Part shown: in pieces, positions 16,621 to 20,857 of the stretch | How the letters are laid out: every line of letters begins with the position of its first letter | How positions within the stretch are numbered: the first letter of the stretch is position 1 | Program-made: the position numbers and the translations under genes | Notes under the pieces: generated by a model | Seen by the model: the letters and a program-made list of their open reading frames with translations, nothing else | Told to the model about the DNA's origin: nothing | The model's database searches: none | Assembly (NCBI RefSeq): GCF_016765655.2 | Contig: NZ_CP086106.1 | Span: 1,300,501 to 1,364,500 of the forward strand | Origin: Skermanella mucosa | GTDB lineage: Bacteria > Pseudomonadota > Alphaproteobacteria > Azospirillales > Azospirillaceae | Direction of reading: 5' to 3' | DNA length: 64,000 nucleotides

Positions 16621-16992
16621 ATGCCGACGATCAGTCAGTTGATCCGTAAGCCGCGCCAGCCTCTGGCGGCGCGCAACAAGGTGCCGGCACTGGAAGAGTG
16701 CCCGCAGAAGCGTGGTGTCTGCACCCGCGTGTACACGACCACCCCGAAGAAGCCGAACTCGGCGCTTCGTAAGGTCGCCCGCGTGCGCCTCACCAACGGC
16801 TTCGAAGTTACCAGCTATATCCCGGGTGAAGGCCACAATCTTCAGGAACACTCGGTGGTGATGATCCGCGGTGGCCGCGTGAAGGACCTTCCCGGCGTCC
16901 GCTATCACATCATCCGCGGTTCGCTCGATACCCAAGGCGTCAAGGACCGTCGGCAGCGCCGGTCGAAGTACGGCGCGAAGCGTCCGAAGTAA
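16621..16992 (+). CDS. rpsL: 30S ribosomal protein S12
   Basis: The 123-residue product begins [11 protein letters not shown] and carries [18 protein letters not shown] and [13 protein letters not shown], the segments lining the decoding centre. The lysines whose change gives streptomycin resistance in other bacteria (Lys43 and Lys88 in E. coli numbering) are present, so the allele looks wild type. It is the first gene of the str operon here, with its own promoter, rather than following rpoBC directly. rpsG starts 14 bp later. Confidence 0.98.
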
Positions 16993-17006: not shown

Positions 17007-17477
17007 ATGTCTCGTCGTCGTCGCGCGGAGAAGCGCGAGGTTCTGCCGGATGCCAAGTATGGCGACCGCGTCCTCACCAAATTCATGAACTGCCTGATGC
17101 TGGACGGCAAGAAGTCGGTCGCGGAAGCGATCGTCTATGGCGCGCTGGAGCGCGTCGAAGGCCGCGCCAAGGCCGATCCGGTCCAGGTCTTCCACGATGC
17201 CTTGGGCAACGTGAAGCCGCACCTGGAAGTCCGGTCGCGCCGCGTCGGCGGTGCCACCTATCAGGTTCCGGTCGAGGTCCGTTCGGACCGCGCCCAGGCC
17301 CTGGCCATCCGGTGGCTGATCAACAGCGCGCGCGCCCGGTCGGAGAACACCATGACCGAGCGCCTGTCGGGCGAGCTGCTCGACGCCGCCAACCAGCGCG
17401 GTTCGGCGGTCAAGAAGCGCGAAGACACCCACCGCATGGCGGAGGCCAACAAGGCCTTCTCGCACTACCGCTGGTGA
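17007..17477 (+). CDS. rpsG: 30S ribosomal protein S7
   Basis: This 156-residue protein begins [19 protein letters not shown], and its end ([15 protein letters not shown]) is the usual S7 C-terminus. It nucleates assembly of the 30S head and in E. coli represses the str operon. A strong AAGGAG site precedes ATG 17007. It is followed by 43 bp before fusA. Confidence 0.98.
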
Positions 17478-17520
17478 TCGCCCTGGCGATCTGAACCAGA
17501 CAGCAGTCCGAGACCTCGAC

Positions 17521-19614
17521 ATGTCACGCTCCACGCAGCTCGACCGGTATCGCAACATCGGCATCATGGCTCACATCGATGCCGGTCGGACGACGACCAC
17601 CGAGCGGATCCTCTACTACACCGGCCGGCCCGGCAGGCCCGCGGAAGTTTCCGCGGCTTCCGGGGCCGATGCCGCGTGGGCGGACGAGGACGAGGAGCGG
17701 GGCATCACGATCACGTCGGCGGCGACCACCTGTTTCTGGAACGGCCACCGCATCAACATCATCGACACGCCGAGCCATGTCGACCTTCCGGTCGAGGTGG
17801 AGCGGACGCTGAAGGTGATCGACGGCGCGCTGGCGGTCTTCGACGCCGCGGTCGGGATCGAGCCGCAATCCGAAGCCGCATGGCGGCGGGCGGACCAGCA
17901 CCGCGTCCCGAGGCTGTGCTTCGTCAACAAGATGGACCGGCCGGGCGCGGACTTCTTCCGCACCATCGGCATGCTGGCCGAGCGGGTCGGCGCGACCCCG
18001 CTGCTCCTGCAGCTGCCCATCGGCGGCGGCGACGGGTTCAGCGGCGTCGTGGATCTGCTGGGTGAGCGGGCGCTGGTGTGGCGGGACGACGGGCTGGGCG
18101 CCTCGTTCCAGGAGACCGGGATCCCGGCCGACCTGGAAGGGCAGGCCGCCGAGTACCGCGCCAAGCTGGTCGAGGCCGCGGTCCAGGTCGATACCGAGGC
18201 GGCCGAGGCGTTCCTGGCCGGGACCGTCCCGGACGTCGCGACGCTGAAGGCGCTGATCCGCCGGGGCACCTGCGCGGCCGAGTTCGTGCCGGTGCTGTGC
18301 GGGTCGGCCTTCCGCAACAAGGGTGTGCAGCCGGTCCTGGACGCCATCGTCGATTACCTGCCGTCCCCGGCGGATATCGGCGGCATCCGGGGCATGGAAA
18401 GCCGGGGCACCGACGGCGAGTGGCGCGACGAGGCGGTCCGTCCGGCGGACGACGCCGCGCCGTTCTCCGCGCTGGTCTTCAAGGTCATGTCGGACCCGGT
18501 CGCAGGCTCCCTGGCCTTCGCCCGGATCTATTCCGGCACCCAGGCGATCGGCGGCACGGTGCTGAACCCGCTCAAGGGTGAGCGGGAGAAGATCAGCCGG
18601 ATGCTGCAGATGCAGGCCACCGCGCGCGAAGACGTGAAGCAGGCCTACGCCGGCGACATCATCGCCTTTGCCGGCCTGAAGCATACCGCGACGGGCGATA
18701 CCCTGTGCGACCCGTCGCATCCTATCGTGCTGGAGCGGACCGAGTTCCCCGAACCTCTGATCGAGGTGACGGTGGAGCCGCGGACCGGGGCCGACGCGGA
18801 GAAGATGGCCGCGGCCCTGCGGCGCATGGCCCAGGAGGATCCCTCCTTCGCCGTCGTCGCCGACAAGGAGCCGGGCCGGACCGTCCTCAGGGGCGTCGGC
18901 GAGTTCCAGCTGGAGATCCTGGCCGACCGCCTGAAGCGCGAGTTCAAGGTCGAGGCCAAGGTGGGTGGCCCGCGGGTAGCCTATCGCGAGACCGTCTCGC
19001 AACGGGCCGAGGTGGACCACACCCGCCGCAAGCAGGTCGGGGATGCCAGCCAGTTCGCCCGCGTGCGGCTGGCGGTCGAGCCGGCGGCGTTGGCGAGCGG
19101 CGTCCGTTTCGAGAGCAGGGTCGCCGCCGGCACCCTGCCGAAGGAATTCGTCCAGGCCGTCGAGAAGGGCGTCGAGGCGGCCGGGAGCGCGGGAGTCGTC
19201 GCCGGCTTCCCGGTGACCGACGTGGCGGTGAGCCTGCTGGACGGCGCGCGCCACGACATCGACAGCTCCGCGCTGGCGTTCGAACTGGCCGGCGCCGCGG
19301 CGTTCCGCGACGCGCTGGGCAAGGCGAAGCCGGTGCTGCTGGAGCCGGTCATGAGCGTCGATATCGTCACCCCGGCGGACTTCGCCGGCGGCGTCATCGG
19401 CGACTTGAGAAGCCGTCGCGGACGGATCGAGCAGGTGGACCAGCGCGGGGCCGCGGCGGCAGTGACCGCCCTGGTTCCGCTTGCAAACCTGTTCGGGTAC
19501 GCCAATATCCTGCGGTCCATCAGCCAGGGCCGCGCGCATCACACGATGCAATTCGATCACTATGAACCGGTGCCGCAGGCCATCGCCGATGAGGTCCGCG
19601 CCAGGGTGGCGTAA
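17521..19614 (+). CDS. fusA: Divergent elongation factor G with altered GTPase motifs
   Basis: The 697-residue protein aligns with EF-G over its whole length and keeps all domains: G domain (1-290), domain II, III, IV (about 480-600) and V. Several normally invariant features differ. The P-loop is AHIDAGRTT, with Arg23 instead of Lys; G3 is DTPSH, with Ser85 instead of Gly, while the next His is kept. Switch I RGITITSAAT, G4 NKMD and G5 GSAF are intact. The region between (ordinarily EVHDG...MDWM) is rewritten, and the Gly-rich QSGGRGQYG-type loop of domain IV reads KQVGDASQFARV. The tip motif HDIDSS remains. EF-G drives translocation and, with RRF, ribosome recycling. No strong Shine-Dalgarno precedes ATG 17521, unlike rpsG and tuf. 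It may be a specialised or decaying paralogue, with a canonical EF-G encoded elsewhere. Confidence 0.9.
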   Translation: MSRSTQLDRYRNIGIMAHIDAGRTTTTERILYYTGRPGRPAEVSAASGADAAWADEDEERGITITSAATTCFWNGHRINIIDTPSHVDLPVEVERTLKVIDGALAVFDAAVGIEPQSEAAWRRADQHRVPRLCFVNKMDRPGADFFRTIGMLAERVGATPLLLQLPIGGGDGFSGVVDLLGERALVWRDDGLGASFQETGIPADLEGQAAEYRAKLVEAAVQVDTEAAEAFLAGTVPDVATLKALIRRGTCAAEFVPVLCGSAFRNKGVQPVLDAIVDYLPSPADIGGIRGMESRGTDGEWRDEAVRPADDAAPFSALVFKVMSDPVAGSLAFARIYSGTQAIGGTVLNPLKGEREKISRMLQMQATAREDVKQAYAGDIIAFAGLKHTATGDTLCDPSHPIVLERTEFPEPLIEVTVEPRTGADAEKMAAALRRMAQEDPSFAVVADKEPGRTVLRGVGEFQLEILADRLKREFKVEAKVGGPRVAYRETVSQRAEVDHTRRKQVGDASQFARVRLAVEPAALASGVRFESRVAAGTLPKEFVQAVEKGVEAAGSAGVVAGFPVTDVAVSLLDGARHDIDSSALAFELAGAAAFRDALGKAKPVLLEPVMSVDIVTPADFAGGVIGDLRSRRGRIEQVDQRGAAAAVTALVPLANLFGYANILRSISQGRAHHTMQFDHYEPVPQAIADEVRARVA

Positions 19615-19666
19615 GGCTCTCGAGTGAACTGCCGGTGACTAAGATAGATTATGGAGACTGAGGACC

Positions 19667-20857
<1,191 letters not shown>

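Follow-up and report, generated by a model that had tools for sequence, protein, structure and literature searches.

The window analysed here (the whole stretch of 64,000 nucleotides from the Skermanella mucosa genome) carries a str operon on its forward strand, in which rpsL (S12, 16621–16992, with the start set by us at MPTIS) and rpsG (S7, 17007–17477, an open reading frame) are followed by fusA (17521–19614) and tuf (19667–20857). The fusA frame begins with ATG and runs without an internal stop to give a protein of 697 amino acids with five EF-G domains, as assigned from the open reading frame, the TIGR00484 score and the Pfam EF-G domains. An earlier sequence-only reading of this DNA had noted the intact frame of 697 codons as well as a canonical EF-Tu next to it; both are borne out, the usual motifs being present in the latter. 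The str-operon protein is hereafter termed EF-G A and the off-operon copy of the same genome (L001) EF-G B. The order S12-S7-EF-G recurs in all five Skermanella genomes, and tuf is out of view in two of them, whose contigs stop shortly after fusA. Scanning 17300–19700 for promoters and terminators gave no match, and the structure predicted for EF-G A from a three-row alignment has a mean pLDDT of 33.7.

In the P-loop of EF-G A, which reads AHIDAGRTTTTE in translation (AHIDAGRTT core, AHIDAG-R-TTTTE), the codon CGG (17587–17589) places Arg23 at the position of an invariant Lys, and in G3 the codon AGC (17773–17775) replaces Gly by Ser85 (DTPSH); the window sequence confirms both codons as first read. 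The loss of EVHDG and MDWM ahead of the switch I RGIT had likewise been claimed, and alignment with relatives agrees: the stretch at 17626–17697 is degraded and reads EVSAASGADAAWADEDE, the EVHDG..MDWMEQEQ of the relatives being gone. Retained are RGITI (G2, 17698–17712) within an intact RGITITSAATT, NKMD (G4, 17926–17937) and His86 adjoining Ser85. The latter is the counterpart of E. coli EF-G His91, a residue examined in work on hydrolysis and Pi release (PMC4532990). In domain IV, alignment gives KQVGDASQF for KQTGGSGQF in loop I (19030–19056; second Gly to Asp, third Gly to Ser) and VAAGTLP for VVGGxVP (19120–19140), and loop II of the window copy keeps HDIDSS (19252–19269).

The two substitutions were followed through 96 str-operon EF-G A proteins (76 from the window's family, Azospirillaceae, four from family f15 and 16 from others of the class). 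Arg23 is found in all five Skermanella genomes and Lys in the remaining 91 proteins, with a single origin of Arg23 on the tree by parsimony. Ser85 is shared by the window and three further Skermanella (DTPS); DTPG occurs in 92 of the 96, including all 91 outside the genus, and the exception within it is S. stibiiresistens (G004, L059) with DTPGHADFS. Conservation in related genomes, which had been proposed as a check, thus holds throughout Skermanella for Arg23 and in part for Ser85. Sequencing or assembly error, against which the sequence-only reading had cautioned, has practically no probability as the source of Arg23, because the residue is common to five genomes (three of them in 1–7 contigs) whose EF-G A proteins are 67–95% identical; the one point in its favour is a Lys-to-Gln case of similar look in an incomplete MAG (G211, 74% complete). 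The EF-G of this MAG (L173) also lies in a str operon, its open stretch of 567 codons is ended by the locus edge and its other motifs are usual in the part covered; the isolated Lys-to-Gln is probably a MAG base error.

A strict search for AH(I/V)DAG(R/S)TTT in an 84,980-species collection, from which records of the window's genome or its close kin may be absent, returned three stretches, two from Skermanella (S. aerolata and S. stibiiresistens) and one from Saccharopolyspora. A looser scan, which accepted any codon not starting with A at the Lys position and so misses A-starting codons and other flanks, found three of 385 genomes in a sample of the class (two Skermanella and G211) and one of 398 in a sample of the phylum, namely the window's own. 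The Saccharopolyspora stretch (S. rhizosphaerae, L057, from 3491 downwards on the minus strand) has the EF-G-like start AHIDAGRTTTTERVLHYTG, its frame stops after 46 codons and it looks like a fusA remnant.

By family, EF-G A belongs to EF-G I: it scores 848 bits against TIGR00484 (EF-G I, fusA; cut-off 659.4), is 59–64% identical to family orthologues outside Skermanella and 50% to its own EF-G B, and groups with alphaproteobacterial str-operon EF-G on trees (quick searches under one model, with L003 and L064 on long branches). The model for Bacteroides EF-G2 (NF058620) gives 397 bits against a curated 1000 and the long insertion is lacking, that for Tet(M)/(O)-type ribosomal protection proteins (NF012153) gives 338 against 775, and EFG II is defined by the absence of the RGITI that EF-G A has; these assignments were rejected. 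The altered loop-1 glycines of recycling-only EF-G are seen in the window and G001 (KQVGDASQ) and in G003 (KQVGSASQ); G002 and G004, also Skermanella, keep both glycines (KQVGGASQ) with the next two residues changed. EF-G A falls among str-operon EF-G I on trees that hold no spdEFG2 or mtEFG2 rows. The window's genome encodes an EFG II-like protein (L003; NF009379, 1048 bits; no RGITI) and four further proteins (L004–L007), all with the Lys and DTPGH, which are taken for RF3, BipA and LepA from their motifs.

The window EF-G A has lost more invariant positions than expected by chance, changing 17 of the 142 columns that stay constant across 51 further EF-G I proteins, among them the Lys found in 51/51 rows. 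Controls, each scored against its own 143–153 invariant columns, change 1–11 (L031, 1; E. coli, 2; S. meliloti, 3; Nocardia, 4; L054, 6; the off-operon EF-G of Catenovulum, 11), and the five Skermanella EF-G B together change 2/144. All five Skermanella EF-G A copies retain 114 of the 142 columns, namely 16/16 in domain II, 17/19 in domain V, 11/13 in domain IV, 13/21 in domain III and 57/73 in the G domain. When changes in any of the five are counted, the switch II stretch is enriched (9/17 vs 19/125 in the other columns; Fisher p=0.001), as are the residues ahead of RGIT (3/4, p=0.02) and, to a lesser degree, domain III (8/21, p=0.03), the stretches having been picked by us and the p values being without multiple-test correction. 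The P-loop and alpha1 show 1/15 changes (Lys23 alone), and RGITITSAA (0/8), the G4 region (0/6) and the G5 region (0/3) show none; the switch II His, the RGIT Thr and NKMD are all kept in the window copy.

This distribution is read as a nucleotide pocket that would remain constrained, with the parts serving hydrolysis and switching released. Binding of guanine nucleotide is predicted because EF-G A retains 14/15 P-loop/alpha1 invariants together with RGIT, NKMD and the Gly of G5, and binding to the ribosome because the domain II invariants (16/16) and the switch II His are kept and domain V is the best conserved of its domains. In other P-loop enzymes, replacement of the Walker A Lys by Arg often leaves binding in place and blocks hydrolysis. 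One P-loop review, searched on this point, gave no passage on Lys-to-Arg binding without hydrolysis.

A housekeeping-type EF-G had been expected elsewhere in the genome, and EF-G B (G000:C1:2726921-2729032) answers to this description, with AHVDAGKTT, DTPGH, RGIT, an intact domain IV tip and, at 985 bits, the top EF-G model score of the genome; the contrary scenario of a genome with no other EF-G is thereby removed. On a quick, one-model tree rooted on a long branch, EF-G B lies outside the clade uniting EF-G A with the E. coli, Shewanella and Nocardia EF-Gs (support 97), and is therefore unlike a recent copy of EF-G A. Within Skermanella, EF-G A is under purifying selection, with a constraint roughly three times less than that of EF-G B by dN/dS: NG86 gives 0.16–0.26 for EF-G A (ten pairs, amino acid identity 67–95%; YN00 gives 0.05–0.08 for six of the ten) and 0.03–0.09 for EF-G B (identity 96–99%). 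Furthermore, the EF-G A frame is unbroken by stops or frameshifts in all five genomes, and domain V is its most conserved domain (78–100% identical to the window copy in four pairs).

Codon adaptation was compared in 31 of the 96 genomes, those with at least 450 reference codons in their own tuf and rpsG (G012 was retained despite an over-long reference frame of 864 codons). EF-G B is the better adapted in 12/12 genomes measured, also where the EF-G A tip is intact (e.g. G006, G012, G016, G028), which makes EF-G B look the more highly expressed of the two. The adaptation of EF-G A averages 0.572 (0.503–0.782) in 22 genomes bearing EF-G B and 0.682 (0.565–0.786) in nine without it, a difference (p=0.0005) that is not corrected for relatedness and whose ranges overlap. 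Against a reference of 12 ribosomal protein genes and tuf from the Skermanella window, EF-G A scores 0.676 and EF-G B 0.795, and three nearby ordinary genes lie slightly below EF-G A at 0.55–0.65.

A full-length EF-G B occurs in 71 of the 82 family genomes searched, with one or more in each genus but g5, g6, g8 and g10. Loop I is altered in 47 of the 70 full-length EF-G A from genomes with EF-G B and in 0/26 from genomes without it; within the window's family alone it is intact in 10/10 without and 22/66 with EF-G B. Many g11 genomes have RQTGDRAQ where the window has KQVGDASQ. The tip motifs of EF-G B are intact in the 33 proteins read, out of 74 full-length copies found. In every B-bearing genome read beyond Skermanella, EF-G A has an unchanged Lys and DTPG, and the loop II His is retained in all five Skermanella copies. 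An exception is G061 (family f15, 65% complete, no EF-G B found), in which a 481-aa EF-G A fragment (L070), lying outside the 96-row counts, has an altered loop. G062 is counted here as B-bearing (N-terminus of EF-G B at a contig edge) and treated as B-less on the trees, and G067 and G084, B-less rows in B-bearing clades, possibly reflect assembly gaps. Excluded were G031, G069, G089, G099, G108 and G109 of the window's family (no full-length EF-G A) and, from the class, G053 and G054 (match only) and G036, G045, G047, G055 and G057 (no full-length match).

The Fisher p value for this association is 1.1e-10 (G062 as B-less, kinship uncorrected), which overstates the case because few independent origins and pairs exist on the tree. 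Seven changes of tip state are needed, interpreted as four origins with three reversals (more origins if reversals are absent); all four origins fall on branches bearing EF-G B. As such branches account for 55% of the tree length, chance alone would give this at about 0.1, and the three independent pairs do not reach significance. After phylogenetic correction, a link between tip change and the presence of EF-G B is thus suggestive only.

Loop II shows changes of its own in some relatives. Its His is lost, replaced or displaced in L031, L068 and L069 (family f15) and in L054 and L157 (window's family), where the forms are AAF-DANSS, GTYRDTASS, GACRDAASS, a deletion and a rearranged stretch; the P-loop Lys and DTPGH are intact in these five str-operon EF-Gs, and their predicted loss of translocation features is stronger than in Skermanella. 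One RRF gene above the family cut-off is present in each of the five Skermanella genomes. G007, whose EF-G A has among the most damaged domain IV tips, carries a second ribosome recycling factor homologue (G007:C11:635610-636122; 154.5 bits against a cut-off of 149.1).

Apparently, EF-G A lost its residues for GTP hydrolysis and translocation because EF-G B took over the job. The reading that we prefer, to which we attach an even chance, is that EF-G B would be the translocase and EF-G A a retained, non-translocating ribosome factor, most likely engaged in ribosome splitting and recycling or in clearing idle ribosomes, much as recycling-only EF-Gs act in mitochondria and Borrelia. EF-G B would perform elongation and would probably be highly expressed; EF-G A would stay in the str operon as a ribosome-binding factor with a changed tip, no longer the main translocase; and in Skermanella alone EF-G A would then have lost Lys23 and switch residues, leaving hydrolysis slow or absent. 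A narrower form of this proposal, tentative and less probable than not, holds that EF-G A would be a nucleotide-binding, hydrolysis-dead protein at the native fusA locus, splitting or holding ribosomes without GTP turnover after EF-G B took translocation, and that it would be the end point of an independent division of EF-G work in the window's family and f15.

The comparison with relatives bears on the preferred reading, since tip changes in B-bearing genomes that keep Lys and DTPGH make the loss of translocase features broader than that of GTPase residues, and a non-translocating role therefore fits EF-G A better. The intact Lys and DTPG outside Skermanella fit a recycling role, as proposed for EF-G1A of P. 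aeruginosa, in which the off-operon EF-G translocates and the str-operon one appears to act in recycling, a result described by its authors as preliminary (PMC3832671). Two loop-1 glycines help EF-G to enter the decoding centre, and the change of the second to Asp, which the window copy shares, is one reason why EF-G2mt does not translocate; Borrelia EF-G2 has one loop-1 Gly changed to Ala, T. thermophilus EF-G2 retains both, and loop-1 tip changes have a negligible effect on bacterial ribosome disassembly (PMC8203779). Also in its favour are the single origin and fixation of Arg23 in Skermanella, the purifying selection on EF-G A, the stronger conservation and codon adaptation of EF-G B, and the RRF gene of each Skermanella genome. 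Nevertheless, 23 of the 70 B-bearing genomes retain an intact loop I, the loop-1 Gly-to-Asp change is not in all Skermanella, the loop II His is retained throughout the genus, the tip association has few origins on the tree, the G061 fragment has an altered loop with no EF-G B found in that incomplete genome, the codon adaptation of the window EF-G A barely exceeds that of ordinary neighbouring genes, and domain III carries an excess of changes, all of which count against the preferred reading.

As to how EF-G A might act, it may split ribosomes by binding energy, as EF-G2mt does with mitoribosomes in the absence of GTP hydrolysis (PMC8203779), or EF-G B may have taken over recycling as well, so that EF-G A would now merely bind. 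Efficient 70S splitting requires GTP hydrolysis by EF-G (PMC8203779), so a hydrolysis-dead EF-G A may be a poor recycler, which weighs against the first option. Movement is driven by EF-G binding rather than hydrolysis and release needs hydrolysis (PMC12775393), and a non-hydrolysing EF-G A might thus remain ribosome-bound for longer, in keeping with a holding function.

The sequence-only reading had instead likened EF-G A to Bacteroides EF-G2, which supports translation without GTP hydrolysis. On a rival reading of this kind, EF-G A would be a GTP-independent translocase that would move tRNA slowly in starvation. The lost P-loop Lys and intact frame agree with this, and an EF-G paralogue translocating without hydrolysis has been reported (PMC12775393; PMC10294740); yet the domain IV tip is altered, the NF058620 score falls far short, the long insertion is missing, and EF-G A sits in the str operon, unlike Bacteroides fusA2 with its own carbon-limitation promoter (PMC6989115). 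The analogy is therefore not upheld and we regard this role as unlikely; the interpretation offered by that reading is, as a whole, partly supported. Just as doubtful is a working, slower GTPase, with Arg serving in place of Lys and elongation shared with EF-G B. Arg keeps the charge, the other pocket invariants and loop II are retained, and dN/dS is well below 1; against this, the Lys is invariant in the 51 EF-G I rows and the other 91 of the 96 str-operon copies, switch I and switch II are both changed, and EF-G B is better codon-adapted.

An equally improbable alternative is that EF-G A is a decaying relic without function, kept between rpsG and tuf by polarity or translational coupling. 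Its long stem (0.31 changes per column on the tree), its faster evolution relative to EF-G B and its relaxed codon bias would suit a relic, and EF-G B could do the work. Nevertheless, the five genomes are free of stops and frameshifts at 67–95% identity, dN/dS is 0.16–0.26, domain V is 78–100% identical and 14/15 P-loop/alpha1 invariants are kept; from these sequence data, pseudogene status is not favoured.

Several known systems share features with the preferred reading. The P. aeruginosa EF-G1A/EF-G1B pair is alike in that the str-operon copy appears non-translocating and the off-operon EF-G I elongates, but its members are 84% identical with G1–G5 strictly conserved, whereas the Skermanella pair is 50% identical and EF-G A is without the Lys and the G3 Gly (PMC3832671). 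The spdEFG1/spdEFG2 and mitochondrial EF-G1/EF-G2 pairs show a comparable split of translocation and recycling, with loop-1 Gly changed to Asp or Ala; EF-G2mt, however, retains its P-loop Lys (Lys83), where EF-G A has Arg23 (PMC8203779). Moreover, spdEFG and mtEFG are ancient separate subfamilies (PMC3150367), whereas EF-G A groups with alphaproteobacterial str-operon EF-G. EFG II resembles EF-G A in its divergent GTPase domain and differs in lacking the RGITI that EF-G A keeps (PMC3150367). Tsr1 likewise combines a translational GTPase architecture with missing active-site residues, but it is a eukaryotic ribosome assembly factor and no EF-G (PMC4895721). Carbon limitation induces Bacteroides fusA2, whose product shares 31% identity with the Bacteroides EF-G (PMC6989115), and EF-G A stays below the cut-off of the Bacteroides EF-G2 model. 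The likeness to Bacteroides EF-G2 lies in an EF-G paralogue without GTPase activity, reported there and predicted for EF-G A. In Bacteroides EF-G2, the loss of GTPase activity is reportedly due to an inserted region.

Among open-licence papers, none was found on Skermanella with elongation factor G, and the titles listed for Azospirillum fusA/EF-G paralogues include no report of such a case. The case is also absent from the EF-G paralogue families in the available portions of Margus 2011 (PMC3150367) and Atkinson 2015 (PMC4342817). The role of EF-G hydrolysis is disputed between movement, release and ribosome splitting, and an EF-G with a fixed replacement of the P-loop Lys would, together with its relatives, offer a natural series separating translocation, recycling and hydrolysis. 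The relatives look like earlier stages of such a series, which runs from an intact EF-G A through an altered tip with intact GTPase motifs to alteration of both. For annotation, the warning is that operon position may single out the wrong fusA as the housekeeping EF-G.

As for EF-G B, it may belong to gcEFG2, a second EF-G of unknown function described from nine alphaproteobacterial species among others (PMC4342817). A five-residue longer switch I (VHDTKDLKTS type) is present in 28/28 EF-G B outside Skermanella (L043–L053, L055, L056, L071, L072 and L158–L170) and in 0/5 Skermanella EF-G B. In Azospirillum thermophilum (L060, NZ_CP029358.1), EF-G B is annotated as fusA and is carried by a plasmid record of 405 kb, with a RidA-family gene close by.
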